NCBI GenBank assembly: GCA_030744755.1
Contig: JASLPY010000021.1
Coordinates: 1 to 64,000 of the forward strand
Reading direction: 5' to 3'
Source of the DNA: Kiritimatiellia bacterium
GTDB lineage: Bacteria; Verrucomicrobiota; Kiritimatiellia; UBA8416; JADHWI01
Length of the DNA: 64,000 bases
Positions 39,301 to 64,000 of the stretch are shown in pieces. Both the position numbers and the translations under genes were made by a program. Each line of letters starts with the position of its first letter. Position 1 is the first letter of the stretch. The notes under the pieces were generated by a model. The model did no database searches. It was given only the letters and a program-made list of their open reading frames with translations, and was not told the DNA's origin.

Positions 39301-41992
39301 ATTCCACTGCCGACGCATCGAAGCCGTCCAGTTCCCATACGCTCATCATGCTCTTCTTGTTGCCAATGTTGTAATCGTCGCTAGGAAAGAGAACGTTCCA
39401 TGCAACGTTGCTGCCGTTCTGTTGTTTGAATCCGCCTATTTTGTACCGCAGCGGAGTGCCGTCGGGTTGGGCGGGAATGACACAGGTCCACCAGTCGATT
39501 GAACTGTTGGTGTTGTCGGAATGACCGAACGTCATTTCCACGACTTTCGTATTCTCCCGGCCTTCGCCACCGGCCCCTTCGGGAAAAGTCTCGCCATCGG
39601 TCGTGTAGTAGAGATACATCCTGTTGATGTCCGAGGCGTAACCCATCTTCGCCCAGACGTGGATATTTGAGCCTGCGGCGTTTTCGGGGAACGGCCAGAA
39701 TTGATCTTCGGATTGATCATTCTCCTCCTCCGGATCGTGGAAGAGCCAGTCGGCGGTGTTGTCATCGCTGTCGCGTCCCGTCAGCCCGTCATTCACCGAA
39801 AAGCCCGAGGAGCCTATGGTGCAGGTATAGGTTTCCGCGCCGTCGGATCCAATAACGTTGTGGATCGGAGTGTCGCGCGCCGCAAACTTCTCACGATACT
39901 GCCGATGCACGAAGTCTATCTGCTCGTATCCCAGGAACAGGTCTGTAGCTATCGCGGGCGGGTTGTCCCTGGGATCACCACCGCTGTGATTCACGCCGTT
40001 GAGATCCATGCCACCGTCCAGTTTCATGAGGACATTCTTGGCGGAACCGTCAACCCGCACGGCAAAGCGGAGGTTTGTTGCCGAAGTTACCCGTGGCACG
40101 TAGTAGGTGTAAGTGAAGTCTGTTGGATCGTCATCGGCAACGCCGTAAGGATTAAAGCCGGGATCACCGTCCGGCCCGTCCTGCCGGTCATATGCAATCC
40201 ACCCGGTCTTCTTCCCGTTCTCTTGGATGGTAATGGGTTCCCCGCCATTTCCGGACCAGAGGTCGGATTCCTCCGGACTGCGCCATGAGAATGCGAAGTA
40301 GCCGCCTGGTGGCACTATGACTTTTATCATGCCGTTGCCGTACCCGGAGTAATCAGGTTCGACCGTGTAGTACCATCCGCCGGCGGAGCTGGAGTACTGC
40401 CACAGCTTTGCTCCGGAAGGGAAAGAAGTAGGAATCTCGCGATATTGTCCAGACGAATAATCGTCGTTCATAACGAAGAACAAAACGGCGCCGTTTGCGT
40501 CATCCATACTTCCGTTCTCGCGCTTGTCGATCCTGTCGTAAGCAACGACATCTGAGTCGCCCCAGCGCGGAGTCTGGTATCCCCGGGCAAAGTGGTTGTG
40601 GATCTGCACCAGGTTGGGGACACGGTTATCGCCCCATTGCCCCAGGAAGGCGGTGTTCGAGTGCCTCGGGAACGCGCCGCCGCTCTCGCCCAGGGTCTCG
40701 GCCTGGTAGTTTCCGTCGGTATATATGTTGGGCAGGCCCTCTCTAGTGAGTGTCAGGCCGTATTGCAGTTCGGGGCGGGTGGCGTAGTCATCGTCGTGGC
40801 TTTTTGTGTACATCACTCCAGAGCCGGCGCTGAATCCCTGGCCCCCGGCGTACTGCAGACCATCAAGGTTGCCCCAGGACTCCCCAAGGTTTCCGTTAAG
40901 GAATCCGTGAAGCTGGCTGTCGACGAGTCGCATGCCGGCGTTGATGTATCCGTCGAATCCAGGTGGCTCGCCGAGATGCTCCCCGAACATCATGAGGTCG
41001 TCGCGCGACTGCGAGGTGTTGAAGACGCTGTCGCGGTGGTTGTCCCAGTCACTGAACCCCCTGGTGATGTTGAACTGCTCCTGGGCCTGACCGAGGTAGC
41101 CCGCCCCGCTGGAGTCCTTGTCTTCGCCGGACTGCAGGCCGAAGAAGTAATCGGGCACGTGCTTGACGGCGTCGAGCCTGAGTCCGTCGATCTTTGAATA
41201 GTCCACCAACCACCTGGCCGCGCGGATGAGGTATGAGTTCACGTCTTCTTCGTAAAGCCACGCATTCGCGGAGTTGGTGAGCAGAGCCGTTGTGATCTGG
41301 CTGCTGCCGAATCCAACATATTCTGCCCCACTCTCGCCGGGATAGAAGCAGTAGAGCTCGGGGTTATTGGGGTGTCGAACGAACTTTATCTTGGGGACGT
41401 GGTCTCCCTCGGAAGTTCCAAAGTTGCCATTGTCGGGCGACTCCTGGGCGATGTCTATGAGGTCGGAGAAATTGCGGTACTGGATCTGCCAGGTATCGCC
41501 CCAGTTGGCGATGTTGTCCCACTTGCGGTAGAAACCTTCCTCGGTTACACGCAGATGAAAATCCTCCGGCACCGTGCCGGGATAGATGTCAATGGGCGTG
41601 TGCTCGTCGAAGCCGGGGACATCAAATGCCCGGTGGTTCATTATGTTGTCAACATACACGCGGATACCGAAGCGGTGTGCAGTTTCAATCAACCGCAGGA
41701 GTTCTGCTTCGGTGCCGTAGCGTGTGCGAACGGTTCCTCTCTGGTCCTTTCCTCCTATATCAAAAGGGTCCCAGAGGTCGTATCCTACCGAAAGCGCGCC
41801 GCTGCCCTTCGTCGGTGGCGGCAGCCACAGTGCACTGTAGCCGGCCTCGGCAATTTCCGGCATCTTGTGGGCCAATTCTTCCCACGTGGTGTTGAAATAC
41901 TGCAGCATGACTTCTGCGCGGGCGGGTTGTCGGCAGCAGGCCAGCAGAAGTCCGACGTATGCAAGAATCCTGAAGCAGAATCTTCTATTCAC
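33317..41992 (-). CDS. Giant secreted GH13-GH57 alpha-glucan hydrolase with TSP3 repeats
   Basis: Protein of 2891 residues with a signal peptide (about 8-26). The N-terminal GH13 domain (27-560) has D274 in GLRLDAVKH, E338 in FGEHL and D400 in SHD. Several Ig/beta modules follow. A long series of thrombospondin type-3 Ca-binding repeats occupies about 1450-1730, and a DOMON-like or glucodextranase-type beta domain about 1805-1960. A GH57-like domain starts near 2050 with VSVIVHGNQ, contains FWTPERVL near 2190 (nucleophile Glu expected here) and VLDQNTHLFNWFG, and runs on into a beta-rich region. A last TSP3 block lies near 2755-2805. The start is GTG behind GAGGAGCC. Having two unrelated amylolytic folds in one chain suggests attack on both alpha-1,4 and alpha-1,6 bonds, which is inference. 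Confidence 0.85.
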   Translation of the reverse strand: MNRRFCFRILAYVGLLLACCRQPARAEVMLQYFNTTWEELAHKMPEIAEAGYSALWLPPPTKGSGALSVGYDLWDPFDIGGKDQRGTVRTRYGTEAELLRLIETAHRFGIRVYVDNIMNHRAFDVPGFDEHTPIDIYPGTVPEDFHLRVTEEGFYRKWDNIANWGDTWQIQYRNFSDLIDIAQESPDNGNFGTSEGDHVPKIKFVRHPNNPELYCFYPGESGAEYVGFGSSQITTALLTNSANAWLYEEDVNSYLIRAARWLVDYSKIDGLRLDAVKHVPDYFFGLQSGEDKDSSGAGYLGQAQEQFNITRGFSDWDNHRDSVFNTSQSRDDLMMFGEHLGEPPGFDGYINAGMRLVDSQLHGFLNGNLGESWGNLDGLQYAGGQGFSAGSGVMYTKSHDDDYATRPELQYGLTLTREGLPNIYTDGNYQAETLGESGGAFPRHSNTAFLGQWGDNRVPNLVQIHNHFARGYQTPRWGDSDVVAYDRIDKRENGSMDDANGAVLFFVMNDDYSSGQYREIPTSFPSGAKLWQYSSSAGGWYYTVEPDYSGYGNGMIKVIVPPGGYFAFSWRSPEESDLWSGNGGEPITIQENGKKTGWIAYDRQDGPDGDPGFNPYGVADDDPTDFTYTYYVPRVTSATNLRFAVRVDGSAKNVLMKLDGGMDLNGVNHSGGDPRDNPPAIATDLFLGYEQIDFVHRQYREKFAARDTPIHNVIGSDGAETYTCTIGSSGFSVNDGLTGRDSDDNTADWLFHDPEEENDQSEDQFWPFPENAAGSNIHVWAKMGYASDINRMYLYYTTDGETFPEGAGGEGRENTKVVEMTFGHSDNTNSSIDWWTCVIPAQPDGTPLRYKIGGFKQQNGSNVAWNVLFPSDDYNIGNKKSMMSVWELDGFDASAVEYRPHVDYSLVSTGLVEGFHVARARAFLERDDKASIYNTFVQTFYYDVETPGGEIKYPAENDWLTGNEYGVVVRTDPTVSDVWFHIEDADPANDDAMTGRELGNGTNELGQWSWIQASEVSPGLQIFSPYPDEWRFNYSNIAPGASNATIYVRLAELSSSTNPLLSDVEGHFTTLERNVIANGPDYRMFVAWPQNDGDHVSLGYDLKVLFSKNLADGVSPDDLVDRFLITIDGNAQGRDNYSVTWNQDDNHHALVYSLPDLYNGDPNYQHEIEITHTNAGGGGVTLEATRMVIADETDAGPYVDIVYPPEFDSDGKPFEIVLPDVGNPDPEDRQITIRVETDLDAQHVWIVFTNNSVGQTIAYPSTTNALAGRVAVTTGTNAVIGQELAINGTVSAVFSNRAVSGSGTDFEGDLTANQVIRIETNLMVVTQIVSSTDLYVNVPYPGTSVTGVAAFQQSAFDSELSAGDRLLIDSSFLNVSSIESSSNFFTMGNYPGTTASGLQAYRIDGNPSVNGSVQTWQFFWTNMTAGYFTFMAMVDTDGNTSTVEAYAIRNITVILREMVESDESDLDDDDDGIYDSDENTPVDLPDSNAETWLNGDVHAWKIFGRTAPLLPDTDGDGLPDGLESGWRVPIDPSQTDTNVDTNGDGWPNFLADYDPPFYNTVPDNWNLPEYVFNDPRTKLIQGTMTDASRADTDYDGIPDGVEDANRNGWADGDGEPLPPTWDPWAERDWPDSEWDAAWAVYPGRETDPNVADTDEDGASDGYGEDKNFNGWIDGDSNSNRTHETGELWQETDPLNPDTDGDGLPDGWEAQYSLDPFDNGILGHTNLSTGAVIASLEHGASGNPDGDTIILGNVTNEYTNLMELQNGTNPRYANTGEPPPEGTIVVGPGPALGSIHGVTNYQEFMDWSWNDCLVVDEYEGAGQNNQGGDVYLGWDGWDGSRDIVAFYAHDGGDTGNGGDGKFYFRVDFYDLKSHAEEGNLDLYVVIDTGNPDEGEMNLPDDVDTITWNRWEAVIAVYQSSQGRVYVDLVRDSGNNTTTWGQELTSYGVEVRGQGNPNGFIDAYFNAELDSVEFCVSRQALIDAGWSGSGASNFNYQVFTTKDGTGNSPVGDGDIGGRSDVRDAIYNDFIAEDYWQSQDGLESILKYWIPGSSKSGRAKVSVIVHGNQAIRPGNRMQELINTGSGAGYYRPLETHELFGKPLNLHVTPTLASAIEWARVDPAAGKSWLDGPSLNDHIGRLAATNIVDLMGSTFSGHIIPYFTEEFNSDNETLAREFIWDIYGVNIDHENAVFWTPERVLDSDVFGKILDIGYGYTVLDQNTHLFNWFGRTESLIDGGYRINDIGGVKCFVINDIATSYLFANHDSGLDMALRSLLIRKALSGTQDQVVVLFSNWETFTDNDDADAYDANIRWLANRPWTPIVTLQQIASDEIDVTGDDAGDTWGAVWRDPGDAASKQSHNWVNHATDEDYDNWYVGSVLEESLEDKFFEIRPGTPVSKRYGMMYSAGTIADTWSKVSALANDDVASLARAVMHASVFQTAFHDESEHDLSRYSTGDYMYPASGSNTLATLAKYAQSQTRVAAIYEEVDDWKTAAASITTTQVQQQDVDLDGENEYLLFNDRLFAVFETAGGRMIGAWVRDILTGDVFQSMGNAVSYSGSETEHEGSYNVEADGTVVSHRTSGLKDWYAEFTPSLGTPQYVNQSYSFTSVSNGWQVSSEPFGYVHKTVTLAPGSWQFEVLYELSGDLSGKTLYVRNGLSPNLYDLLTGGQSTLGEEALDAGVVMLANTNYSTTVYAYIGYGDMGHSASLNTNALDDDPGQGVEFDTLTMRNQAQTHQVELSGTGSFTFSLGFHADASDWDGDGMPNNWEDGFGFLDPLDDSDGDLDEDEDGVSNTDEYTSNTGPGDDTDFLSITSLQSQVTGFLVTFPAKAEREYHVWYDDDGIDQPQWSNATPNAITVESDQTVEWLDDGTMTFPHPSTVTNRLYKVTVSVPE

Positions 41993-50768: not shown

Positions 50769-51881
50769 TCACGCCTGAAAGACAGCGTCCCAATTCTTGA
50801 ATACCGGGTCGAGACCCTTGCTTTCAAGCATTTGACAGAACTTGGCCACGTCGCGGGTGTCGCTCACGCTGAACTGACCGCCGGTGTCTACATCCTCAGG
50901 GACATAGCCGCCGACTGTCGTTCGACTGGCAGCACTCATGCGGGAGATGCCCACTCCGGCCATGCCGTCGCGGAAAGCAGGGTGTTCGCGGGTCGAAAGA
51001 ACGAGTGGAACATCCGGCATGCAGATCCTGAATGCAAAAACGATTTGCGCGAGTTGACGGTCATTTATGGAATAGGGGGGAGAGAAATCTCCCCGCTGTT
51101 CGCAAATCCTTGGAAACGAGATCATTACGCCGGATCGCCAGAAGCTCCTTTGCAGGTGCCTGGCGTGCTGGTACAGGGCTATCATGTCGCTCACCGGATC
51201 GGCGAGTCCGAGAAGCGCGCCTAAGCCCGCCGAGCGCATTCCGGCAGCCAGAGCCCGGTCCTGGGCTTCCAGGCGGGCAGCGTAGTCGCGCTTCGGGCCC
51301 CATCGATGGAGCTCTTCGTAAACGTCGGGATCGTAAGTTTCCTGGTACAGCGTGATGCTGTTGCACCCTGCCTTGGCAAGTTGTTCGTATTCGTCGGCAG
51401 TCATGGCGAAAGACTCCACCGATACGTTGTGTACGATGGGTGAAGCAACCTCTACACATTTCTTCAGGTATTCGAAGTCGGCCTCCGGGGTACGCTCCCC
51501 GGTGAGCAGGAGGATGTCCTCGAACCCCATTTTCTTGAGGGCCAGTACCTCGGCTCTCACCTGGTCTCTGGACAGGCGGTAACGCCGTTGTTCACGATCC
51601 GAGGCGAATCCGCAGTAGGAACAACCCCCGGTACAATAGTTGGACAGGTAGAGCGGAACATACAGTGAAACCGTGTTTCCGAAATGGTGCATTGTCAGGG
51701 AGTGAGCCTTCTGCGCCATTTCCTCCAGGCGCTTGGCGGCCGTTTCGGAAAGGAGTATGGCGAATTCTTTTGCAGATGGCCGCGTGGCCGTCAGGGCGGA
51801 TTGCACTGTGCCGTCCCTGGCTGACATGCAAATATCGGCAAGCTGGAGAGGATCAAGCCAATCTGGGGTAATGTGTTGCAT
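50769..51881 (-). CDS. thiH: 2-iminoacetate synthase (radical SAM)
   Basis: Radical S-adenosylmethionine enzyme of 370 residues that splits tyrosine to give dehydroglycine for the thiamine thiazole. The cluster motif is C83-x3-C87-x2-C90 (NYCTGGCSYCGF), followed by LLLTGE, SITLYQETYDP and PYSINDRQLAQ, all ThiH-like. It is the last gene of the thiS-thiG-thiH set, 13 bases after thiG. Use of ThiH rather than ThiO fits an anaerobic or facultative lifestyle. Confidence 0.94.
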   Translation of the reverse strand: MQHITPDWLDPLQLADICMSARDGTVQSALTATRPSAKEFAILLSETAAKRLEEMAQKAHSLTMHHFGNTVSLYVPLYLSNYCTGGCSYCGFASDREQRRYRLSRDQVRAEVLALKKMGFEDILLLTGERTPEADFEYLKKCVEVASPIVHNVSVESFAMTADEYEQLAKAGCNSITLYQETYDPDVYEELHRWGPKRDYAARLEAQDRALAAGMRSAGLGALLGLADPVSDMIALYQHARHLQRSFWRSGVMISFPRICEQRGDFSPPYSINDRQLAQIVFAFRICMPDVPLVLSTREHPAFRDGMAGVGISRMSAASRTTVGGYVPEDVDTGGQFSVSDTRDVAKFCQMLESKGLDPVFKNWDAVFQA

Positions 51882-51894: not shown

Positions 51895-52743
51895 TCAGGA
51901 ATCTCTGGAAAGGAACGAGGTCAACGGACTGGTGGCAGTTGCCGCATCGCTTTGAGGCATTATGCCGGCCCGCCACGCCCGGCGTCCGGACTCGACAGCT
52001 GTTGAAAACGCCTGCGCCATTTCAACGGGGTCATCGGCTGCTGCTATGGCGCTGTTGACCAGAACGGCTCCGCACCCCATCTCTATCGCTGCTGCGGCTT
52101 CCGACGGTGCCCGCAACCCTGCATCTATGATGACGGGCACGTTGCTGTCCCTGACAATCAGGGAGACCATTTCGTGCGTGCCGAGTCCGTGTCCGCTTCC
52201 GATGGCTGAACCCAACGGCATTACCGATGCACAGCCGATTTCTTCAAGGCGCTTGGCAAGAACGGGATCGGCGGGCATGTAAGGCATCACTACAAAACCC
52301 TGGGACGCCAGTTCTTTTGAAGCCTCATAGGTTTCTATCGGGTCCGGCATGAGGTGATGGGGATTCGGGTGAATCTCCACCTTGACGAAATCGCTGCCGC
52401 TGAGTTCGCGTGCAAGGACGGCAGCTTTGATTGCTTCGGCAGCAGTGCGTGCTCCCGATGTGTTGGGCATGAGCGTAACTCCCTCCAGGGCTGATAGGGG
52501 AGACAGGAGGTCGTCGGAAACTCGGTCCGGGTTGAATCTTCTAAGAGCAACGGTGACCAGCTGCGTACCGGACGCCTCTATGGCCGCAAGCATGGTTTCC
52601 GCGTCCGAGAACTTACCTGTCCCCATTATCAGGCGGGAGCTGAACTCGTATGAGCCAAGCTTCAATTTATCGGTTTCTGGTTCAATGTCTGACATATGCA
52701 CTGGTCCATCCAATTTCTCTAAAGTGGCCCTACTCTCTCTCAT
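51895..52743 (-). CDS. thiG: Thiazole synthase
   Basis: Enzyme that builds the thiamine thiazole phosphate from deoxyxylulose phosphate, dehydroglycine and the ThiS thiocarboxylate. [31 protein letters not shown], the Schiff-base Lys in FVKVEIHPN, and [20 protein letters not shown] are visible. I use the ATG at 52743 because it overlaps the thiS stop as ATGA; the ATG at 52695 would remove 16 residues that are not conserved and is a real alternative (266 residues). No TPP riboswitch was found upstream of the operon. Confidence 0.93.
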
Positions 52744-52940
52744 CCACCGGCGGCGAAGACAAGGATTTCTACACAATCGTTTTCTTTCAGCCTGACATTC
52801 GTTCTCTCGGCCCTGGGTATGACATCATCGTTGACGGCTACGGCCACTTTGTCGGCATTGGCCCCCATGGCAGCCAGGAGCCCGGCAATCGTGTTGTCAC
52901 CGTCGTGCTCATAATTATTGCCATTCACTATCAGCTTCAC
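52740..52940 (-). CDS. thiS: Sulfur carrier ThiS
   Basis: Ubiquitin-like protein of 66 residues that carries sulfur as a C-terminal thiocarboxylate. It starts [11 protein letters not shown] and ends exactly with Gly-Gly (FAAGG), so no processing is needed. It heads thiS-thiG-thiH. The usual activating enzyme ThiF is not in this operon. The two E1-like proteins nearby (55622-57802 and 60314-61117) are candidates. Confidence 0.92.
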
Positions 52941-53080
52941 TGCAGCTCCTCGTGCGCCGATCTATCTCACGTTCAGATTGTTCGGCAACCTTATACTGTT
53001 TATCCGGGCTGTTTTCCAGCCGAGAGTGGGGCGAGCGTTTTCCGCTGTTACTGTTGCTGGCTACCGGATTGTCGGGAGAA

Positions 53081-53214
53081 GTAGGCGTCGGCGGCCCGAC
53101 GGCGCCACGTGGGATGCAAGTGCATGAATCAGTGCACTTACAAGAGTCTTCGCCTGCTGTGCATGTAGAATGCACGAGCATGTCACTTGGTCCCGTCGGG
53201 CCGCCGGGACCTAC
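53081..53214 (+). repeat. 134-bp REPIN-like element, copy 2
   Basis: GTAG plus the stem GGCGTCG/CGGCGCC (one G-T wobble) at 53081-53107 faces TTGGTCCCG...CGGGACC plus CTAC at 53187-53214. The interior holds two further small hairpins (AAGTGCA/TGCACTT and GTGCAT/ATGCAC). Same length as copy 1 at 48809-48942, in the opposite orientation. It fills most of the 322-base gap between mnmA and thiS. Confidence 0.8.
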
Positions 53215-53262: not shown

Positions 53263-54312
53263 TTATTGAATCCAGCCGCCTCCGAGCAGCTCGTCGTCGC
53301 GGTAGAATGCCGCGATCTGGCCGGGCGCAACGGCGAATTGCGGCTCATCGAATACGACGGATGCCGAACCGTCCTCGTTCGGTGTCACGGTCGACGCGGC
53401 TCCGGCGTGATTGTATCTTATGAGGGTGGTGGCGGGAAAAGGACTCGCAGGCTTCCGATCGGATATCCAGTTTACTCGTCCGACGGTGGCCGACGGCATA
53501 TCAAGCTCGCTTCTTTTGCCGACCACAACCGTATTCGTGTCCGCGTCAAGGCGAACCACGTACATTGGCTCGCCCAGGGCGATACCAAGACCCCGACGCT
53601 GGCCAACCGTGAACCTGTGAATCCCTTCATGTTCGCCCACCTTGTGTCCACCGGTGTCCAGAATGTCGCCGCGCTTCCTGACGTCGGGACGGAGTTTCTC
53701 GGTGAGTTCGTAATGCTCTCCGTCGGTCACGAAACACAACTCCTGACTTTCTCCCCTGTTCGCCAGGGGTATGCCCCTTTTCTCCGTATAGTCACGTACT
53801 TCCCGTTTGGTCATCCCGCCAACCGGGAAGATAGAGGAGCTCAGCTGCTCTTGCGACAGATCAAAGAGAAAATAGGACTGATCCTTGTTTTTGTCCTGAC
53901 CCGAAAACAGGTGGCAAATCCCGGAGTCGTCCTTGTGGAGGCGGACATAGTGACCGGTCGCCAGGAGCTCAGCGCCCAGCGTGCGGGCTTTATCCATAAG
54001 CAACCCAAACTTGATAAGCGGGTTGCACAGTCCGCAGGGCGAAGGTGTTCTGCCGGCCACGTATTCATCGGCAAAGTACCCGACGATCTGCTCGCTGAAC
54101 GGTTCGTGAAGGTCTATGACGTAATGCGGAATCTCCAGGACGGCAGCAACCCGTTGCGCCTGCCTGATATCCTCATCCGAACAGCAACGGGAGCCGGAGG
54201 ACCACATCTTGGCGGTGAGACCGAAGACCTTGTGTCCCCTGTCGATAAGCAGCGCAGCCGCGGCCGAACTATCCATCCCCCCGCTCATTGCAACTGCTAC
54301 GATTGGTTTCAT
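53263..54312 (-). CDS. mnmA: tRNA-specific 2-thiouridylase
   Basis: Enzyme of 349 residues that puts sulfur on U34 of tRNAs for Lys, Glu and Gln, using ATP. The PP-loop is AMSGGMDSSAAA near the N-terminus. The catalytic Cys pair is in SPCGLCNPLIKFG (about 99-105 region) and in SQELCFV (about 200). The start is ATG at 54312, five bases after the metY stop; TTG at 54321 is less likely. It is cotranscribed with metY and the E1-lyase fusion, which points to a shared sulfur supply. Confidence 0.93.
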   Translation of the reverse strand: MKPIVAVAMSGGMDSSAAAALLIDRGHKVFGLTAKMWSSGSRCCSDEDIRQAQRVAAVLEIPHYVIDLHEPFSEQIVGYFADEYVAGRTPSPCGLCNPLIKFGLLMDKARTLGAELLATGHYVRLHKDDSGICHLFSGQDKNKDQSYFLFDLSQEQLSSSIFPVGGMTKREVRDYTEKRGIPLANRGESQELCFVTDGEHYELTEKLRPDVRKRGDILDTGGHKVGEHEGIHRFTVGQRRGLGIALGEPMYVVRLDADTNTVVVGKRSELDMPSATVGRVNWISDRKPASPFPATTLIRYNHAGAASTVTPNEDGSASVVFDEPQFAVAPGQIAAFYRDDELLGGGWIQ

Positions 54313-54317: not shown

Positions 54318-55619
54318 TCAACCCACGCTGGCCGCCAGGGCCTGTGTGAAGTCGGCCTTAATGTCCTCGACGTTCTCGAGACCAACGGCCACACGGACAA
54401 ACTCGGGTGTTACGCCCGAGGCTCTCTGGGCTTCTTCGGTCATCTGCTGGTGGCTCGTCGATGCCGGATGCAGCACAAGCGTTTTCGCGTCACCGACGTT
54501 TGCCAGGTGGCTTGCGAGCTGGACGGAATCTATGAACTTGCGGCCGGCATCGCCGCCGCCCTTGATGCCAAACCCTAGAACAGCACCGTATCCACCTTTG
54601 AGATAGCGTGACGCCATTTCGTGATAAGGGTGATCTTCGAGGCCGGTGTAATTAACCCATTCGACGCTGTCCTGGGCTTTCAGCCATTGTGCCAGTTCGA
54701 GTGAGTTGGCGCACTGGCGTTCAATTCGCAGCGGCAGTGTTTCCAATCCCTGCAGAAACAGGAAAGAGTTGAACGGGCTCGGGCACATGCCTATATTCCT
54801 CATGCCGTCAACGCGTGCCTTTATTATGTAAGCAACGTTGCCCATCCCGGGTACATCCTTCAGCGCGTCCCAGTAGACAATCCCGTGATAGGCTCCATCC
54901 GGTTCGGTGAATCCAGGAAAGCGACCGGAACCCCAATCGAACTTCCCGCTGTCCACAATCACGCCACCTATAGATGTGCCGTGGCCGCCGATCCATTTCG
55001 TGCATGAATGAACGACAATATCCACCCCGTACTCGATTGGGCGGCACAGGATGGGTGTGAATGTGTTGTCCACCATGACCGGTACGTTCTCTGCGTGGGC
55101 CACGTCGGAGATCCCTGCAAGGTCCGCTACATCACCCTTGGGATTGCCGAGGCTCTCCAGGTATACGACCTTCGTGTTCGGCTTGATGGTCGCTTTTACC
55201 TTCTCTGGAGTGATGTCGTCGATGAACGTTACTTCAATTCCCAGTTTCGGGAGAGTATACCGCAGGTAGGTGTCAGTTCCGCCATAGAGCGAAGCCGAGG
55301 CCACAACATGATCGCCTGCTGCGGTGATATTGTGAATGGCCAGAAAAATGGCGCCCATGCCACTTGATGTCAGAAGTGCGCCGACTCCCCCTTCGAGGGC
55401 GGCAATTCGTTTCTCTACAACGTCGGAAGTGGGGTTCATCAGCCGTGTGTAGATGTTGCCGAATTCTTTCAGTGCAAACAGATTCGCGGCATGCTCCGAG
55501 TCGTTGAACACGTAGCTTGTGGTCTGGTATATCGGGACGGCTCGTGCACCTGTTGTCGGATCGGGCGTTTGTCCCGCGTGCAGGGCCAATGTTTCGGGAT
55601 TGTTGGTTTCTATGTTCAT
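54318..55619 (-). CDS. metY: O-acetylhomoserine sulfhydrylase (MetY type), copy 1
   Basis: PLP enzyme of 433 residues of the Cys/Met metabolism family, adding sulfide (or a protein thiocarboxylate) to O-acetylhomoserine. The N-terminus ETLALHAGQTPDPTTGARAVP and YQTTSYVFND are MetY-like; the PLP Lys lies in VHSCTKWIGGHGTSIGG. ATG at 55619 follows GAGGAGC and lies 2 bases after the stop of the E1-lyase gene. A long upstream frame extension is an overlap with that gene and is not coding. A second, more divergent copy is at 58775-60082. Confidence 0.9.
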   Translation of the reverse strand: MNIETNNPETLALHAGQTPDPTTGARAVPIYQTTSYVFNDSEHAANLFALKEFGNIYTRLMNPTSDVVEKRIAALEGGVGALLTSSGMGAIFLAIHNITAAGDHVVASASLYGGTDTYLRYTLPKLGIEVTFIDDITPEKVKATIKPNTKVVYLESLGNPKGDVADLAGISDVAHAENVPVMVDNTFTPILCRPIEYGVDIVVHSCTKWIGGHGTSIGGVIVDSGKFDWGSGRFPGFTEPDGAYHGIVYWDALKDVPGMGNVAYIIKARVDGMRNIGMCPSPFNSFLFLQGLETLPLRIERQCANSLELAQWLKAQDSVEWVNYTGLEDHPYHEMASRYLKGGYGAVLGFGIKGGGDAGRKFIDSVQLASHLANVGDAKTLVLHPASTSHQQMTEEAQRASGVTPEFVRVAVGLENVEDIKADFTQALAASVG

Positions 55620-55621: not shown

Positions 55622-57802
55622 TCACTTGCTCCTCGGCTTGTATTGGGCGGCAAACTGTCCGATCATGCCCGGAGGGCCGCCCACCTTTTCCAGTCCGTCG
55701 ATGTTCTCTATGTCTTTCTGCAGTTCCGCAAATGTGTCCGTAATGTGCTGGACGAGGTTCCCGTAATCCACGCCTACCGGAATGGTCAGGCGGAGAAGAG
55801 AAGTTCCTCGTTTCGCCTGTTCGGGTGAGATCAAATTTACTCCCCCGCGTATCCCGCCTGCAACGAAAAGCGCGTTGGACAAAGCCGCCGCCGGATGGTG
55901 TTCGGCCGGAACATGAGGCAGCATAGCCGCGGCGTCGACAAATACGCCGTGTCCGCCGCAGGGGCGTGTCAGCGGTACCCCCAGGGCGTCGAGCGATTCC
56001 CATAGTTCCCGAACCACCCTCATGCGGCCGGCGGAGGATTCAGGGGTTTCGGGAGATACCTGCAGTGACCGTGAGATGTTGTATCGGTCGGTTTCCGAAA
56101 GGCCGCTGCCGATGCCGAGAGTGGCAAGGTCCCGCAGCTGCACGAAGACGTCTTCGCTGTTCGTTGCGATGAAGGCGCCGTCGCGACAGAGGAAATCCTT
56201 GCTGAGGCTGGCGGCACACATATCCGAGTTGGCACATATCTCTCTCGTTATTGCCAGCATGCTCCTGTCGCCGAAGCCCGGCTCTCTCTCTCGCACCTGT
56301 TCGGCATTCTCAAACACGCGCGTGGCGTCAAGAATCACGGAAACACCATGTTCCGTCGCGATCGAGCGTACTGCCCTGAGATTTTCAATGGAAACGGGAT
56401 GTCCTCCCAGCGCATTCACGCACAGTTCCATATACACGGCCTGGACGTCTTCACTGTTCAGCAGGGCCCTGAACGCCTCAATGTCGATGTTTCCTTTAAA
56501 AGGGTGGGGCGATGATATGTCGTAGGCTTCCGGGATGCCAATCTCTACGACCTTGGCGCCGTTGGAAACCAGATGGTAACGCGTCGTGGGGAAGAGAGCG
56601 TTGGTGGCGATGGTCCTGCCCGGTTTGACGACAGACTTTGCCAGAAGTGCTTCGGCGAACCGTCCACGAAACACGGGGACAAAGAACTTGTAGTCATAGA
56701 ACCCCTGCAACAGCTGCTTTGACCGATCGCCGCCTTCAGGCTTGCCGGGTTCAGGTGCGCTTGGTCGGGGCAGGTCATGCCAGCTATCCGTCAGCATTTC
56801 CGCGGCAATGGTGTCGGGAGGCACGAGGTTCGTGTTGTATCCGACACGGGCCAGCCATTCGGATCGTTCGTTTCGTGCCTCGCCAGCTTCGGTGATCCTG
56901 TAGGACAGTCCGGTGTCTACCGGCTTTTCGGGGGTACTCTCCTTGTCACCGCTCTCACTCAGTTCTTTTATGTCCATCACCCTGTATTGGAGAGTAAGCG
57001 GTTCTACGGCGAGGACTTGTGGCAGGCATATGGGAGGACGCCACCCCGGCATGGACGCGCCGAGGAGTACAAGAGTGGCCTCCGTACACACAAGGGAAGT
57101 TGCCAGCACGGGAGAAATGGACAGCGATGGCACTTTGTGCTTCGGCAGGAGTTTTTCCGTTGCGGCCAGGTGCTCTTTGACGAACACGTTTCCCAGTCCT
57201 TCCGGTAACTGGGCCTTTTCGCTTGCGTCGGAAACGAATTCGCCGAATACGGCTTCCATCGGCATACCATCGGGGGCCGCGAGGACAATAACGGTTCCAA
57301 AACCGATCACGGGTGCCGAAATGCAATGGATGCCCTGTGATCTGGCCTGTCGGTACATCTCGTTTCGGATTGCCGTCGGGACCACGATGTCAAGACAGTC
57401 TATCAAGAAATCGGCGCCGTTCAGAAAGTCCCCGATGTTCGTTTCGGTCACTCCTTCGCAGAACTTCCGCACGTTAATGGCGGGATTTATCGAGCGTAGC
57501 ATCTCGTCGTATACTTCGGCCTTGTTTCTGCCCAGCGTGCCGGTTGTGGCGCCCCATTGACGGTTGATATCCGGTTCGTCGAAAGACCCGGGATCAGCGA
57601 GTACGAAATTGCTGACTCCCATCCTCGCCATGCTTATAGCTGCCGCGGCACCGACTCCTCCGCACCCGGCAACGGTTATGGTCTTGGTCTTCAGTGTCTG
57701 TACGGCATCCTCGCCCATGAGCAGCAGGGTACGATTCAGGAACTCCGTGAAGAACTCGTCTGCGCTGCTCTTGTGCGGCTGTTGTGTTTTGTCTGATGTC
57801 AT
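55622..57802 (-). CDS. ThiF/MoeB-like E1 fused to a tryptophanase-family beta-lyase
   Basis: Fusion protein of 726 residues. The N-terminal part (about 20-290) is an E1-like adenylyltransferase: GCGGVGAAAA nucleotide loop, DEPDINRQW with the conserved Arg, GRNKAEV and LIDCLDIVVP. It has no CxxC zinc pairs. The C-terminal part (about 350-726) is a tryptophanase or tyrosine phenol-lyase homologue: TTRYHL, LGGHPVSIENLRAVR, VILDATRVFENAE, and the PLP Lys in SLSKDFL. Both halves keep key residues, so both may work. The lyase could free sulfide from cysteine (tryptophanases do this) for a carrier adenylated by the E1 half; that is inference. It heads an operon with metY and mnmA. I do not know a studied protein of this architecture. 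Confidence 0.82.
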   Translation of the reverse strand: MTSDKTQQPHKSSADEFFTEFLNRTLLLMGEDAVQTLKTKTITVAGCGGVGAAAAISMARMGVSNFVLADPGSFDEPDINRQWGATTGTLGRNKAEVYDEMLRSINPAINVRKFCEGVTETNIGDFLNGADFLIDCLDIVVPTAIRNEMYRQARSQGIHCISAPVIGFGTVIVLAAPDGMPMEAVFGEFVSDASEKAQLPEGLGNVFVKEHLAATEKLLPKHKVPSLSISPVLATSLVCTEATLVLLGASMPGWRPPICLPQVLAVEPLTLQYRVMDIKELSESGDKESTPEKPVDTGLSYRITEAGEARNERSEWLARVGYNTNLVPPDTIAAEMLTDSWHDLPRPSAPEPGKPEGGDRSKQLLQGFYDYKFFVPVFRGRFAEALLAKSVVKPGRTIATNALFPTTRYHLVSNGAKVVEIGIPEAYDISSPHPFKGNIDIEAFRALLNSEDVQAVYMELCVNALGGHPVSIENLRAVRSIATEHGVSVILDATRVFENAEQVREREPGFGDRSMLAITREICANSDMCAASLSKDFLCRDGAFIATNSEDVFVQLRDLATLGIGSGLSETDRYNISRSLQVSPETPESSAGRMRVVRELWESLDALGVPLTRPCGGHGVFVDAAAMLPHVPAEHHPAAALSNALFVAGGIRGGVNLISPEQAKRGTSLLRLTIPVGVDYGNLVQHITDTFAELQKDIENIDGLEKVGGPPGMIGQFAAQYKPRSK

Positions 57803-58068: not shown

Positions 58069-58233
58069 ATTCGAGTGTTGAGCAGTGCACGACTGTGAGC
58101 ACAGCACGCGTTGACCGTAGCACCGCGCCACATAACAGGTTGATAATCAATTGCCCGTTGCCTTTTTCTAGTTGACCACCACGAAACAGCATCATATCCT
58201 ACTAACACGATAGGCATAATGGAGTTTTTATTT

Positions 58234-58683
58234 ATGAGGGTTTCTTCGAAAACTGATTACGCATTGAGAACGGTCATAGACCTCGCGTTGCATATGGATG
58301 ACGGGGTTAGTGCAGCTGCGCGGATCGCTGAGAGGCAGGACATTCCTGTAAAATTCCTTGAGCAGATTCTCATGATATTGAAGGCAGGTGGCATAGTCGA
58401 AAGCAAGCGGGGGGCCGGTGGAGGGTACTTCCTTGCGGACCCTCCTTCACATATATCAGTGGCTTCGGTGATGAGATTGATGGAGGGAAGGCTTTTTGGA
58501 CCACCGGTTTCGGCACAGAGACGGCGTGCCGGTTCAGTTTCATCTTCCAAAGAGTTACCATTCGAAGAACTGTGGGCGAATGTAGAGGCAGCGGTTGCGG
58601 AGAACCTGGAGAAAATCTCTATCAGTGAAATGAGCGATAGGGTCAGGAAGCATTCGCATACGTCCTTGGATTTCTCGATCTAG
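58234..58683 (+). CDS. Rrf2-family regulator, cysteine-free (CymR-like)
   Basis: Winged-helix regulator of 149 residues. SSKTDYALRTVIDLA and the RGAGGGYFLADP wing are typical of Rrf2 proteins. The three Cys that bind Fe-S in IscR are absent; the whole protein has no Cys. This resembles CymR, which senses cysteine status through a complex with CysK, but the match is by inference. ATG at 58234 follows GGAG. It sits immediately upstream of the metY/carrier/E1/sulfite-reductase/cysteine synthase genes, its likely targets. Confidence 0.82.
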   Translation: MRVSSKTDYALRTVIDLALHMDDGVSAAARIAERQDIPVKFLEQILMILKAGGIVESKRGAGGGYFLADPPSHISVASVMRLMEGRLFGPPVSAQRRRAGSVSSSKELPFEELWANVEAAVAENLEKISISEMSDRVRKHSHTSLDFSI

Positions 58684-58774: not shown

Positions 58775-60082
58775 ATGAATGAAGCGATAATGCATGTTGA
58801 AACGGAAGTGATTCACGGAGGCTTCAGTCCCGACAAGGAGACGGGTGCGACGACTACGCCAATAGTGCAGAGTACGTCGTTCTCCCACGAAACTGCAGAG
58901 GAGTTGGCCCACATATTTGAGGGCCGTGCCCCCGGGTACGTCTACTCCCGAATCAGCAACCCCACGGTCATTTCGTTCGAAAGGAGAATGACCGCCCTGG
59001 AACAAGGGTTGGGAGCGGTGGCTTGTGCATCTGGAATGGCGGCAATTAGTACTACTGCACTCGCGCTGGCTGGCGAGGGAGACGAGATTGTATCCGGGAA
59101 CAGCATATTCGGAGGCACCTACTCCCTGTTCAAAAACACACTCAGCCGCTTCGGTATCAGGCCGGTGTTTGTTGAATCAACGGATGTTCACGCTTACAAA
59201 GACGCGATTACGGACCGAACGAAACTTATCTTTGTTGAAACTATCGGCAATCCAAAGATGGACGTTCCGGACATAGAGGCCATTTCGAAGGTGGCGAAAG
59301 AACACGGCGTTCCTTTCGTTGTAGACAGCACTGTTACAACTCCGGTGCTGTTACGTCCCAGGGAATTCGGTGCCGACATCGTAATCCACTCGACATCGAA
59401 GTTCGTGAGTGGCCATGGCAACGCGATTGGTGGCATCATAATAGACTCGGGTACGTTCGATTGGTCGAACGATCGTTACCCGCAGCTGGCGCCTTTCTAC
59501 AAGAAGACCCGCCAGTTCGCATTCCTTGCATCTCTGCGAAGCCTCTTCTATCGTGATTTGGGCTGCTGTCTTTCGCCTTTCAACGCCTTCCTAATGCTTA
59601 CGAGCATTGAATCCCTTGCAGTGCGCATGGAACGACAGTGCGCCAATACCCATGAGATAGCATTGCGATTGTCGCGAGACAAGAGAGTTGAAAATGTCAG
59701 GTATCCTGGGTTAGCATCCCATCCCGATAATGAAACGGCGGAGAGACAGTTCTCGTGCGGTTACGGCGCGGTGTTAACACTCACGCTGGGTTCGAAGCAG
59801 AGAGGCTTTGAGTTCATCAACGGACTTCAGCGAGTCCAGAATCTTGCGAATATCGGGGATGCAAAGACCCTGGTCATTCATCCGGCGTCGACGTTCTGCC
59901 TTGATGCGACCGATGCGGAACGCGTTGCGATGGGCGTGAGCGATGACATGGTGAGATTGTCAATAGGTCTGGAACACGTTGATGACATATGGCTGGACAT
60001 CGACCAGGCACTTGACGGAATGACGGAAGAGACAACTGACATGAAAGACTCGAAAGAAGAGGAGCAGAACAGTGCAGATTGA
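58775..60082 (+). CDS. O-acetylhomoserine sulfhydrylase-like enzyme, copy 2
   Basis: PLP enzyme of 435 residues of the Cys/Met metabolism family: ETEVIHGGFSPDKETGATTT, VYSRISNPT, the cofactor Lys in IHSTSKFVSGHGNAIGG, and NIGDAKTLVIHPAST. It is MetY-like, distinct from the copy at 54318. The C-terminal end is acidic (MTEETTDMKDSKEEE). Its stop overlaps the GTG start of the carrier gene by 11 bases, a strong coupling. In the Wolinella pathway a MetY uses the carrier thiocarboxylate rather than free sulfide, which I infer for this copy. ATG at 58790 is an alternative start. Confidence 0.88.
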   Translation: MNEAIMHVETEVIHGGFSPDKETGATTTPIVQSTSFSHETAEELAHIFEGRAPGYVYSRISNPTVISFERRMTALEQGLGAVACASGMAAISTTALALAGEGDEIVSGNSIFGGTYSLFKNTLSRFGIRPVFVESTDVHAYKDAITDRTKLIFVETIGNPKMDVPDIEAISKVAKEHGVPFVVDSTVTTPVLLRPREFGADIVIHSTSKFVSGHGNAIGGIIIDSGTFDWSNDRYPQLAPFYKKTRQFAFLASLRSLFYRDLGCCLSPFNAFLMLTSIESLAVRMERQCANTHEIALRLSRDKRVENVRYPGLASHPDNETAERQFSCGYGAVLTLTLGSKQRGFEFINGLQRVQNLANIGDAKTLVIHPASTFCLDATDAERVAMGVSDDMVRLSIGLEHVDDIWLDIDQALDGMTEETTDMKDSKEEEQNSAD

Positions 60083-60317
60083 AATAAACGGTGAAGGAAC
60101 AGCTATCGATGATGGCCTGAATGTTGCAAGCCTGCTCAAGGTCCAAGACGTCAAGATGCCGGACATGGTCTCTGTGGAACTGAACGATGAGATTCTGGAG
60201 CGCGAAGATTTTGAAACGACCACTTTGAAGGAAGGAGACAGGGTAGAGCTCCTCTATTTCATGGGGGGTGGCGCTTTGCCGGAACACGGAGAATGCGGAA
60301 CAGGAGATTGGAAGTGA
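60072..60317 (+). CDS. ThiS-like sulfur carrier with a 14-residue C-terminal tail (HcyS/CysO-like)
   Basis: Small ubiquitin-like protein of 81 residues starting with GTG behind AGGAG. The beta-grasp core (MQIEINGEGTAIDD... GDRVELLYF) ends in Gly65-Gly66-Gly67, followed by ALPEHGECGTGDWK. Carriers are active only with a free C-terminal Gly, so the tail must be cut off; a JAMM peptidase domain for this is encoded two genes downstream. HcyS of Wolinella is made with one extra Ala and QbsE of Pseudomonas with two extra residues, both removed by JAMM enzymes. The Gly codons contain a run of six G, so frame errors are conceivable, but no shifted frame ends at the glycines. It is distinct from ThiS at 52740. 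Confidence 0.8.
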   Translation: MQIEINGEGTAIDDGLNVASLLKVQDVKMPDMVSVELNDEILEREDFETTTLKEGDRVELLYFMGGGALPEHGECGTGDWK

Positions 60318-61117
60318 ATCTGACTGGCGAACAGGTAGAGCGTTACTCACGGCACATAATCCTCTCGGAGGTAGGTGGACGCGGGCAGGAACAGCTCTTG
60401 GCAGGAAGAGTACTTCTGGTGGGGGCTGGGGGACTTGGCTCACCGGCCGGATTGTATCTTGCAGCCGCAGGAGTGGGAACGATAGGCGTTATTGACTCCG
60501 ATGTCGTGGACCTGACCAACCTGCAGCGTCAGGTGCTTCATGGAACCAGTGACGTGGGTAAACCCAAGGTCGAATCCGCGGAAGCGTCCATGGCAGAGAT
60601 CAACCCCGATGTACAGATTCGTACGTACCGGGAGCGGCTGACGACGGATAATGCTTCTGAGATTCTGGCGGACTACGACTTCATTATAGACGGCACAGAC
60701 AACTTCCCTTCGAAGTTCCTCGTGGCCGATGCATGTCATTTTGCCGGCAAGCCGTACTCGCACGCTGGAATCCTCAGGTTCGAAGGCCAGACCATAACAG
60801 TGCTGCCGGGGCAGACCACGTGTTACCGATGCGTGTTCAAGCAAGCGCCGCCGGATGGAGCAGTTCCTTCCTGTTCCCAGGCTGGAGTCCTTGGCGTTCT
60901 TGCGGGAGTTATCGGCAGCATCCAGGCCACGGAGGCAGTCAAGTTCCTGCTTGGCATAGGTGAGCTTCTTACGGGTCGCCTCCTGGTTTACGATGCCCTG
61001 AAAATGAAGATCAGGACGATACATGTGAATCGGAATCGGGACTGCCCGCTATGCGGATCGAATCCGACTATTACCGAATTGATCGAAGAAGCCCAACCCG
61101 CGTGTGATTTGAAATGA
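60314..61117 (+). CDS. MoeB/ThiF-type E1 adenylyltransferase (HcyF/MoeZ-like)
   Basis: Enzyme of 267 residues that adenylates the C-terminal Gly of a carrier protein. It shows ERYSRHIIL, GAGGLGSPAGLYL, DLTNLQRQ with the catalytic Arg, KPKVESA, the mid-chain DGTDNFP, the Cys in SCSQAGVLG, and two CxxC zinc pairs (CYRC and CPLC). There is no rhodanese domain, so sulfide is likely the direct sulfur source. GTG at 60314 follows GGAG, overlaps the carrier stop as GTGA, and the stop overlaps the next ATG as ATGA. Confidence 0.92.
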   Translation: MNLTGEQVERYSRHIILSEVGGRGQEQLLAGRVLLVGAGGLGSPAGLYLAAAGVGTIGVIDSDVVDLTNLQRQVLHGTSDVGKPKVESAEASMAEINPDVQIRTYRERLTTDNASEILADYDFIIDGTDNFPSKFLVADACHFAGKPYSHAGILRFEGQTITVLPGQTTCYRCVFKQAPPDGAVPSCSQAGVLGVLAGVIGSIQATEAVKFLLGIGELLTGRLLVYDALKMKIRTIHVNRNRDCPLCGSNPTITELIEEAQPACDLK

Positions 61118-63909
61118 CACTTGAAATAGACAGTTCTGTGTACGAAGCAATGATTCTGGCGTCAAACAAGGCGTTGCCCATAGAGGCCTGTGGTCTACTG
61201 GCGGGCAGTGATGGCAGGGCCACTAAGTTGTATGAGCTGACCAACGCTGATGCATCGGCTAAGCACTTCAGCTTTCTGCCGGAGGAACAGTTTGCAGCCA
61301 TAAAGGATATGCGCTCCTGCGGAATGGAAATGCTTGCAATATGGCACAGTCATCCTGATACGCCCGCGCGCATGTCTGAGGAAGATCTAAGGCTTGCCCT
61401 GACGCCGGGCGTTGTCTACGTGATCCTCTCTATGATGGACGGCCTTCCTGCAATGCGTGGGTTTGAGCCCGACGAAGGCGTTGCGATAAGCGTTCCCGTA
61501 GAGATAGTTTCTTGTGGTGTCAAATCAGAGGCGGACGAATGCGATGTGAAAGCGCCGCGGAGTTTCTACAGTTTGCCCGCTGATCTGTCCGAGGACATTG
61601 AACAGCATGCGGCAGACGTGGCGCGCTTCCTTGACGGCGACCTCTTGCCGGGGGTTCTGAAGGCAAGGCGAGTGCCCAGGGGAATGTACGAGCAGAGGCA
61701 AGACGGCACCTTCATGATTCGTGTCCGCGTGGCAGGTGGATCCTTAACGACCGATCAAGCTCGAGCCCTGGCCGACTTGAGCCGTGAGTTTGGAAACGGG
61801 AAGCTGCACGTAACAACTCGACAGGACGTACAGATCCACGATGTCGACATAAAGGATACACCCGACATTCTTCGGCGCTTGATGGATGCCGGTCTCAGCA
61901 GTAAGGGGGGAGGAGGAAACACGGTTCGCAATGTCACGGCTTGTCCGTACGCCGGTACCTGTTGCTCCGAGCTCTTTGATGTGACCCCCTTTTCTTACGC
62001 GGTCACACAGTACCTCATTGGGTTGCCCGGCAGCTACAAGCTCCCCCGGAAATACAAGATCGCCTTCAGTGGATGCGGGGCCGACTGTGCATTGGCGCAG
62101 GTCAACGATCTGGGGTTCATTGCCAAGGAAAAAGACGGGGCTCCTGGCTTTGCTTTGTACGTGGGTGGAGGAATGGGCGCCAAGTCCAGGACTGGTGATA
62201 CCCTTGACGCCTGGGTTCCCGCCAAAGACGTAATCAGGGTGGCGGAAACGGTGCGGCGTCTGTTCGACCGGATGGGTGATCGCCACAATCGGCAGCGTGC
62301 ACGTCTTCGTTTTGTGCTGGATCGCATAGGAGCGGAAGCTTTTCGCGGGGACTACCGCGATGAACTGAAACGAGTGGAAGCGGATTCGGTACCCGACTGC
62401 ACCGTTGAGGCGGCAGTCAGAAAGCCTGAAAAGCAGACTCCCCCCGAAGAGGAGTTCGGGGCAGGGGGATCTGTCCGATTCATGCGTCAGCGCCAGGACG
62501 GATATGCGATGGTCCGCATTTACACGCCGATGGGCTTCATCTTGTCGGAAGAACTGGCGAGACTGGCGGATACGGCTGACAGATTCAGTTCGGAAAGAGC
62601 GCTGCGCACTGTGCAGGTTCAAGACTTCCTTCTGCGGTACGTAAAGGAAGAGGATCTTCCCGACTTAAAAGAGCGTCTTGTCGGCGAGGATTATGATTTC
62701 ATTTCTGCGCGTGCTCTAAACCATTTCATTTCCTGCGCAGGAGCGTCCACGTGCAGAATGGGGCTTTGTCTTTCGAGGAATGCCACCGAGGCCTGTGCCG
62801 ATGCGATTGACCGGTCGGAAATAGACCTGTCCATCCTGGGGGATGATGGAATTAACATCAGTGGCTGCGCGAATGCGTGCGGTCAGCATCCTATCGCGGC
62901 GATTGGGTTTCACGGTGTTACGCAACGGAAAGGCGGTCGTCTGGTACCGTCCTACCGCGTGTCGCTCGGCGCTCAACACGTTGAGCCGGAGGCACGTCTC
63001 AGCAGTGATATGGGTGCTGTTCCTGCTCGGGCCCTACCCGCCTTCCTCGTCGATCTGCTGAAAGAGTTTCAGGCAGGGCAGCAGGACAGGGAGGGTTTTG
63101 CCTGCTTTTATGACCGTATGGGGGGAGAGCACTTCAAAGCCCTGGTAAAGCGTCATTGCGAGATCCCGGAATACGATGATAACAGCGATTTCTACAGGGA
63201 CTGGGGAAGCGATGAGGACTTCTCTCTTGCAGGTCGTGGTGCGGGTGAGTGCGGTGCCGGGGTCTTCGAACTTATAAAGAACGATATCGCCGAGGCAAGA
63301 CGTGCAGTCCTGTCGGCTTCTGCGACTGAGGGTTCGGGTTTGTTCGGCGCGCTGCTGCCGGCCGTGCGTGCACTGTTGATAACGCGCGGAATCGACACCG
63401 TGAAGCCGGAGGAAATCTTCAGCCAATTCGCCGGTCATTTCATGGATACCGGTCTCGTTCACGCTGAATACAGGTCACTCCTGACGCGCGCGGAAGAATA
63501 CATGGCTGGTGAAACCGGCTCACTGGACGGTACTGCCAAGGAAGTCAGCCGCCTGATCGACAGTATCGACGCGTTGTACTCAACGCTGGATTCCAGTCTC
63601 CAGTTTCATCCGTCAACCGTGGAAGACACGGTTGCGCCTGATGTTTCGCAGGCTGCACCCGAGGCGCAGGACGGGAACGCAGGCACTGTAGAAATTGATC
63701 TGTGCGGTGTGGCATGTCCAATGAACTTCGTAAAGGCAAAGCTCAGGCTGGAATCAATGCAGATCGGAGAAATGCTCGGCATCGTACTCGACGAAGGCGA
63801 ACCGGTCCGTAACGTGCCGGAGAGTTTTCGCGGTGAAGGACAGGAAGTGGTGGATATGGCCAGGCTCGACGGTGAGCACTGGCGAGTGGTTATAAAGAAG
63901 AAGAGATAG
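61114..63909 (+). CDS. JAMM peptidase - siroheme sulfite reductase - helical domain - TusA fusion
   Basis: Polypeptide of 931 residues. Residues 1-130 form a JAMM metalloprotease (E24, H78-x-H80-x7-S88-x2-D91). Residues about 155-650 are a siroheme sulfite reductase of single-chain type with both ferredoxin-like halves; the C-terminal half has CAGASTC (about 539) and GCANACG (about 583) for the coupled 4Fe-4S/siroheme site. A helical region of about 700-830 resembles a HEPN-like domain. Residues about 860-931 are a TusA domain with DLCGVACPMNF. It would make sulfide, pass it as persulfide, and cut the carrier. The gene overlaps the E1 gene by ATGA and precedes cysteine synthase. HcyD and Sir are separate proteins in Wolinella, so this joins pathway steps. 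Confidence 0.88.
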   Translation: MTLEIDSSVYEAMILASNKALPIEACGLLAGSDGRATKLYELTNADASAKHFSFLPEEQFAAIKDMRSCGMEMLAIWHSHPDTPARMSEEDLRLALTPGVVYVILSMMDGLPAMRGFEPDEGVAISVPVEIVSCGVKSEADECDVKAPRSFYSLPADLSEDIEQHAADVARFLDGDLLPGVLKARRVPRGMYEQRQDGTFMIRVRVAGGSLTTDQARALADLSREFGNGKLHVTTRQDVQIHDVDIKDTPDILRRLMDAGLSSKGGGGNTVRNVTACPYAGTCCSELFDVTPFSYAVTQYLIGLPGSYKLPRKYKIAFSGCGADCALAQVNDLGFIAKEKDGAPGFALYVGGGMGAKSRTGDTLDAWVPAKDVIRVAETVRRLFDRMGDRHNRQRARLRFVLDRIGAEAFRGDYRDELKRVEADSVPDCTVEAAVRKPEKQTPPEEEFGAGGSVRFMRQRQDGYAMVRIYTPMGFILSEELARLADTADRFSSERALRTVQVQDFLLRYVKEEDLPDLKERLVGEDYDFISARALNHFISCAGASTCRMGLCLSRNATEACADAIDRSEIDLSILGDDGINISGCANACGQHPIAAIGFHGVTQRKGGRLVPSYRVSLGAQHVEPEARLSSDMGAVPARALPAFLVDLLKEFQAGQQDREGFACFYDRMGGEHFKALVKRHCEIPEYDDNSDFYRDWGSDEDFSLAGRGAGECGAGVFELIKNDIAEARRAVLSASATEGSGLFGALLPAVRALLITRGIDTVKPEEIFSQFAGHFMDTGLVHAEYRSLLTRAEEYMAGETGSLDGTAKEVSRLIDSIDALYSTLDSSLQFHPSTVEDTVAPDVSQAAPEAQDGNAGTVEIDLCGVACPMNFVKAKLRLESMQIGEMLGIVLDEGEPVRNVPESFRGEGQEVVDMARLDGEHWRVVIKKKR

Positions 63910-63919
63910 GAGGAAAGTC

Positions 63920-64000
63920 ATGAAGTACTACGCAGATAATTCTCTATCCATAGGTAATACGCCTCTCGTGCAGTTGCAGAAGGTGGTAGGCAGTAACGCT
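63920..64000 (+). CDS. Cysteine synthase (partial, runs off the window)
   Basis: The first 27 codons only, beginning MKYYADNSLSIGNTPLVQLQ. The IGNTPLV motif is the opening of O-acetylserine sulfhydrylases (CysK/CysM). ATG at 63920 follows AGGAGGAAA, ten bases after the fusion gene stops. It is the last visible member of the sulfur operon and could use free sulfide or a thiocarboxylate carrier, as CysM does in mycobacteria. The class cannot be decided from this fragment. Confidence 0.85.
   Translation, partial: MKYYADNSLSIGNTPLVQLQKVVGSNA

Follow-up and report, generated by a model that had tools for sequence, protein, structure and literature searches.

A rare protein joining an E1-like domain to a thiocysteine lyase-like domain, encoded among sulfur-assimilation genes in two uncultured bacteria

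Results

A conserved fusion of an E1-like domain and a PLP lyase domain

We identified, in a 64,000-nucleotide stretch of Kiritimatiellia DNA (the whole stretch analysed, hereafter the window), a fusion gene (55622-57802, reverse strand) whose 726-aa product joins an E1-like domain to a PLP lyase domain. The gene lies among sulfur-assimilation genes here and in a second, distantly related uncultured bacterium, and its product may transfer sulfur from cysteine to an activated carboxyl. Judged by its active-site residues, the closest functional match of the lyase half is a cysteine/thiocysteine lyase domain; the coupled mechanism as a whole, in which the two halves would work together, we hold at moderate probability.

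The reading frame runs for 726 codons from an ATG without internal stops, and the Pfam search found a ThiF domain at residues 23-279 (56966-57736, reverse strand; E 2e-33) and a Beta_elim_lyase match at residues 366-579 (E 2e-30), both far over cut-off, so the preliminary description of one 726-residue chain with E1-like and tryptophanase-type parts is borne out. The lyase domain as we delimit it spans residues 309-723 (55634-56878, reverse strand): in a search of PDB sequences, residues 309-713 align with tyrosine phenol-lyase (TPL; E 4e-59), while the ThiF part matches tRNA t6A dehydratase, ThiF, MoeB, and E1 chains. The AlphaFold model has high confidence in the lyase half (pLDDT mostly 85-98), for which the best PDB folds are tyrosine phenol-lyases, with the SH (thiocysteine lyase) domain 9cen also among the matches; confidence in the ThiF half is moderate to low, and residues 187-307 are low.

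A co-linear homologue of 723 aa is encoded in another genome of the class (G324; CALHGX010000048.1), sharing 51% identity along its length, with both halves conserved (59% over 272 aa in the E1 half, above the 47% of the lyase half). This disposes of two objections that had been anticipated, namely a frame error joining two genes and homologues that always occur as two genes: both full-length matches in the class (346 genomes) are single chains, and no split pair of ThiF and lyase genes was seen there, the other strong lyase matches being stand-alone tryptophanase-type enzymes. Both source genomes are incomplete metagenome assemblies, which would favour an artefact, but the assemblies are independent and the gene order around the two copies is unlike, which excludes inherited assembly noise as the origin of the joining; we regard an assembly or frame artefact as ruled out for practical purposes.

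Judged from these comparisons, the fusion is real, conserved, and rare. It occurs in 2 of the 346 genomes of the class, each from a different order; no further copy turned up among the remaining 30 genomes of the order to which the window belongs or when the lyase half was used to search a sample of 388 genomes from the phylum, and viral contigs, phages, and plasmids contained none. A scan of 84,980 species genomes matched only CALHGX, but it used two exact peptide patterns and may have missed divergent fusions, so rarity is established within the class only. A literature search, confined to open-access papers, turned up no description of an E1 fused to a PLP lyase.

The lyase half resembles thiocysteine lyase domains

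Aligned with TPL (whose numbering is used here, with the fusion residue in brackets), both fusions retain Lys257 (K535, the PLP Schiff-base lysine in SLSKDF, 56198-56200, reverse strand), Asp214 (D492), Arg217 (R495), Asn185 (N463), Phe123 (F404), Arg100 (R381), and Arg404 (R671); the PLP lysine and the DATR (492-495) and HPVS (468-471) regions are thus kept, as first noticed from the sequence. Both lack Tyr71 with its loop, Phe36, Phe448, and the Arg381 loop, and have Pro405 in place of Thr124 and Ser or Thr534 in place of Lys256. Tyr71, Phe36, and Gly52 are kept by every one of the 45 remaining family members aligned, stand-alone relatives of the same class among them; at fusion position 341 these 45 have Gly, whereas the fusions and the SH domains have Trp. 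Trp341, Pro405, Ser534, and Phe537 are common to the fusions and four polyketide-synthase SH domains, which likewise lack the Tyr71 and Arg381 features, and nearly all changes in the lyase half of the fusion are shared with such domains. The same letters are found in 9cen, whose record describes it as the thiocysteine lyase domain from the guangnanmycin pathway, when read from its alignment to the Kitasatospora SH domain.

In polyketide-synthase lyase domains the Tyr is replaced and Arg381 deleted, and changes at Arg381 impair activity on tyrosine, not on other substrates (PMC3870968); SH domains are biochemically shown cysteine/thiocysteine lyases (PMC8479088). The SH-like active-site changes, taken with this proven activity, make it most probable that the lyase half cleaves the C-S bond of a cysteine-type substrate. 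Of the SH-type features, the PLP lysine, the Asp, and the carboxylate Arg (K535, D492, R671) are kept, and the loss of Tyr71 and the deletion at Arg381 are present; the polyketide synthase module context is absent and an E1-like partner stands in its place, so we file the domain as SH-like rather than as an SH domain.

The maximum-likelihood tree agrees, setting the fusions and the SH domains together apart from the other sequences by a branch with 100/99 support; since the tree is unrooted and both sets of branches are long, part of the grouping could be attraction, and we therefore give more weight to the common active-site changes than to the branch. Could the lyase half instead be an ordinary tyrosine phenol-lyase or tryptophanase, joined to an E1 by accident? 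Its best PDB sequence and fold matches are indeed tyrosine phenol-lyases, and its sequence scores higher against TPL than against SH, which would fit an early branch. However, neither fusion has Tyr71, Thr124, the Arg381 loop, or Phe448, the scores fall under the equivalog cut-offs (235 against 721 for TPL; 168 against 826 for tryptophanase TnaA, with the catalytic Tyr absent), and AU tests rejected trees forcing the fusions together with TPL (p 0.0014) or with TnaA-like rows (p 0.001). Residues and tests together reject either identity, and we consider an accidental joining of this kind very improbable.

A clade with an altered active site is formed by 24 tryptophanase-like proteins, mostly from this phylum (L070-L074, L041-L053, L103), in which Arg217 is replaced by Leu, Lys256 by Arg, Asp258 mostly by Val, and His343 by Leu.

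The E1 half belongs with PRK08223 and PRK14852 proteins

The E1 half keeps the Gly-rich ATP loop (residues 46-51), R81, K94, and D138 (the Arg finger, Lys, and catalytic Asp); the zinc CxxC pairs seen in the MoeB of the window are absent. Among NCBIfam models it scores best against PRK08223 (164 bits, where the cut-off is 266), followed by PRK14851 and PRK14852; it falls inside the PRK08223/PRK14852 clade with 99/97 support and carries the PDGM..E..FG segment of these proteins. Joining it with MoeB was rejected (AU p 2e-7), and with that its identity as MoeB/ThiF. The label "ThiF/MoeB-like" initially given to it therefore survives in part: the Pfam ThiF domain, the ATP loop, and D138 are there, but the grouping with ThiF/MoeB and the zinc CxxC pairs are not. 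Anti-phage E1 systems gave only weak, general E1 matches. One genome, G022, encodes five PRK08223-like ThiF paralogues (L006, L066, L067, L068, G022:C290).

One PRK14852 protein is a FeeM-ThiF-nitroreductase, and OxzB and TyzB, ThiF proteins found together with nitroreductase domains, use ATP to cyclise N-acyl amino acids (PMC10404671). From the common domain partners we infer that OxzB and TyzB (whose sequences lie outside our tree) belong to the same clade as the E1 half. The E1 half is thus apparently a working adenylating domain, but the proteins nearest to it probably use small carboxylates, and here lies our chief reservation about a carrier protein as the acceptor. This kinship also opens a small-molecule route, in which an OxzB/TyzB-like E1 half would activate a small carboxylate and the SH-like half would add sulfur to yield a thioacid or some similar sulfur metabolite, with the sulfur genes only supplying cysteine. 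The clade placement, the shared segment, the FeeM-ThiF-nitroreductase, and the chemistry of TyzB/OxzB all favour such a route, as does the work of SH domains on carrier-bound small molecules (PMC8479088). Against it, neither an acyltransferase nor a nitroreductase was seen beside the fusion in the window locus or in the G324 locus, and ThiS-family carriers, MetY, and PP-loop thiolases are found instead; overall we judge it somewhat unlikely.

Sulfur genes surround the fusion in both genomes

In the window the fusion heads a reverse-strand operon with metY and mnmA, as the preliminary description had proposed. Its stop lies 2 nt from the ATG of metY (O-acetylhomoserine sulfhydrylase type; 54318-55619), and about 5 nt separate the metY stop from the ATG of mnmA (tRNA 2-thiouridine synthase, by profile matches; 53263-54312). 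Then follow, on the same strand, thiS (52740-52940; GTG start, 66 aa, ending GG), thiG (51895-52695; Pfam), and thiH (50769-51881; profile matches). Divergent from the fusion, on the forward strand, are a Rrf2-family regulator (58219-58683; profile matches), a second metY of the Hcy (protein-thiocarboxylate) type (metY2; 58775-60082), an HcyS-like sulfur carrier of the ThiS family whose GGG is followed by a tail (60072-60317), a MoeB/HcyF-like E1 with CxxC zinc motifs (60293-61117; profile matches and residues), one 931-aa chain with JAB, nitrite/sulfite reductase, and TusA parts (61114-63909; Pfam), and the start of a cysK-like gene (63911-63997; 60% identity over 30 aa), truncated where the window stops. 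The HcyS-like carrier here adjoins its own MoeB, and the genome has further E1s; in the window, the fusion would be an additional E1.

Several observations concern the window and the families in it. The JAB-reductase-TusA chain, with which L149 3289-6072 (reverse strand) is listed, is one 955-aa frame in G202, and in G185 the JAB part (148 aa) stands apart from the reductase-TusA part (809 aa). In the HcyS-like carriers of the class (60072-60317; L129, L130, L132, L136, L142, L148, L150), a terminal GGG is followed by tails variable in length and sequence, which fits trimming by a JAB protease. A small frame with a Cys-rich start between mnmA and thiS (52915-53181, reverse strand) may be due to chance. 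Farther away, an open frame of 2891 residues (33317-41992, reverse strand) begins, as read by eye, like an alpha-amylase-type glycoside hydrolase. An Rfam search of the window gave no matches.

The G324 locus has the order Rrf2, cysK, larE, fusion, thiI-like, cysH, cysD, cysN, tauE, metY2, hcyS, the fusion overlapping larE and the thiI-like gene by 4 nt on each side; it is thus translationally coupled inside sulfur loci in both genomes. Relatives without the fusion are informative: in G001, from the window's family, thiH-thiG-thiS-mnmA-metY-Rrf2 is followed by moeB-cysK, and the operon of G190 matches that of G324 except that mnmA occupies the position of the fusion, so the fusion gene is found in two differently ordered sulfur loci. 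A replacement of MnmA by the fusion in G324 is rejected, since G324 keeps mnmA elsewhere.

The metY2 module is found in 19 of the 346 class genomes, both fusion genomes among them, a co-occurrence that in two genomes is suggestive only. Most metY2 modules continue with hcyS and then moeB and JAB. The hcyS gene of G324 has no E1 after it, and the single MoeB homologue detected in that genome is without its N-terminal ATP-binding part and frameshifted (L078 8037-8584, contig C43, in two frames), which makes the fusion a natural E1 for HcyS there, although at 89% the assembly is incomplete. Elsewhere in G324 (C2, L079 7721-11185) are a TcdA-like E1, metY, a ThiS-like carrier ending GGG, and cysK.

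A proposed mechanism and its alternatives

In both genomes a single chain, with both predicted active sites intact and SH-like lyase residues, lies in a sulfur operon. Our best reading, to which we give a probability of roughly 0.45, is that of a two-headed enzyme: the E1 half would adenylate a carboxylate, most probably that of the glycine which ends a sulfur carrier of the ThiS/HcyS family, and the SH-like half would cut the C-S bond of cysteine by beta-lyase chemistry, acting on free cysteine, thiocysteine, or cysteine on the activated carboxyl. The sulfur would end on the carboxyl as a thiocarboxylate, pyruvate and ammonia being released alongside, and the thiocarboxylate could feed homocysteine formation by MetY, or the nearby PP-loop thiolases. 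Cysteine could be cleaved first, followed by attack of sulfide or persulfide, or only after an S-cysteinyl thioester has formed. Cysteine as substrate, the carrier as acceptor, and the order of steps are all points that we infer; a carrier protein is moderately likely as the acceptor, and a small molecule less so. In the second order, which would be free of sulfide, cysteine would displace AMP from carrier-CO-AMP, and the SH-like lyase would beta-eliminate the S-cysteinyl thioester to carrier-COSH, pyruvate, and ammonia. This order resembles the one proposed for SH domains, whose substrate would be a cysteine or thiocysteine adduct bound to a carrier; taken as a specific route we find it fairly unlikely.

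The earlier suggestion that cysteine sulfur is channelled to a carrier acyl-adenylate accordingly stays our best reading in view of the SH-like lyase residues, except for thiazole-ThiS as common acceptor: thiG is not detectable in G324 (89% complete), which excludes thiazole synthesis as the role common to both. Several findings count against this reading, namely that the E1 half is closest to N-acyl amino acid activators and without the MoeB zinc site, that the window's HcyS-like carrier has its own MoeB, that a NifS/IscS-type cysteine desulfurase is present in both genomes, and that only the two fusions were found, both in incomplete metagenome assemblies. Given the NifS/IscS-type enzymes, the fusion is rejected as sole cysteine-sulfur enzyme and is rather an additional source of cysteine sulfur.

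Two further alternatives retain the lyase chemistry and change its purpose. The lyase could be a desulfhydrase that frees sulfide or persulfide for MetY, MnmA, LarE, and the ThiI-like protein, with the E1 acting separately and the fusion serving for co-expression without channelling. PP-loop thiolases are indeed among the neighbours of the fusion in both genomes (mnmA; LarE and the ThiI-like protein), and free sulfide is usable by sulfhydrylases; but the surrounding operons already provide sulfide from sulfate or sulfite (through cysHDN in G324 and a sulfite reductase in the window), and it is the E1 half that is the better conserved, so that we think this unlikely. Alternatively, the lyase might run in the reverse direction, using beta-replacement of serine or O-acetylserine with a thiocarboxylated carrier to make cysteine or a derivative, like CysM with CysO. 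TPL and tryptophanase do catalyse beta-replacement, and the context is biosynthetic; yet cysK lies in the same locus in G324 and adjoins the locus in the window, and we consider this direction quite improbable.

Comparison with known systems

If the proposed coupling of E1 and lyase is true, the fusion would be a self-contained route from cysteine to an activated thiocarboxylate, in one chain with its own cysteine-type lyase; thiocysteine-lyase-like chemistry, so far from polyketide synthases, would enter primary sulfur metabolism, and the OxzB/TyzB branch of E1-like enzymes would be tied to sulfur transfer.

The sulfur-carrier E1 enzymes known so far get their sulfur via a rhodanese, a cysteine desulfurase partner, or free sulfide. 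In MoeZ, MOCS3, and Uba4 the E1 is joined to a sulfur-donating rhodanese, which takes sulfur as persulfide, whereas the fusion has a non-MoeB E1 and a PLP lyase that would take sulfur from cysteine. The protein-thiocarboxylate methionine pathway of Wolinella (HcyS, HcyF, HcyD, MetY) has its counterpart in the divergent carrier, MetY, E1, and JAB genes of the window, and its carrier and MetY also in the G324 operon; unlike the fusion, it relies on a stand-alone E1 of MoeB type and has no PLP lyase. Operons of this type were noted in PMC1779556.

PRK14852 proteins, and probably OxzB and TyzB with them (ThiF-nitroreductase, FeeM-ThiF-nitroreductase), are the closest relatives of the E1 half, and several likewise combine an E1 with a second enzyme. 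Their partner is a flavin oxidoreductase and their products N-acyl amino acid oxazolones, in contrast to the PLP lyase and sulfur genes of the fusion, which shows an E1 of the PRK08223 clade, scoring below the cut-off of that model, without acyltransferase or nitroreductase partners.

TPL and tryptophanase (PF01212) share the fold and the PLP site with the lyase half, which lacks their leaving-group residues and sits on a separate tree branch. The SH domains of leinamycin-type polyketide synthases (LnmJ, GnmT; 9cen) share with it the fold, the PLP residues, the losses of Tyr71 and the Arg381 loop, and the four residues named above, and in both cases the lyase is part of a larger chain; at about 32% identity, however, SH domains reside inside polyketide synthases and act on carrier-bound polyketide adducts, whereas the lyase of the fusion is paired with an E1-like domain and encoded among sulfur genes.
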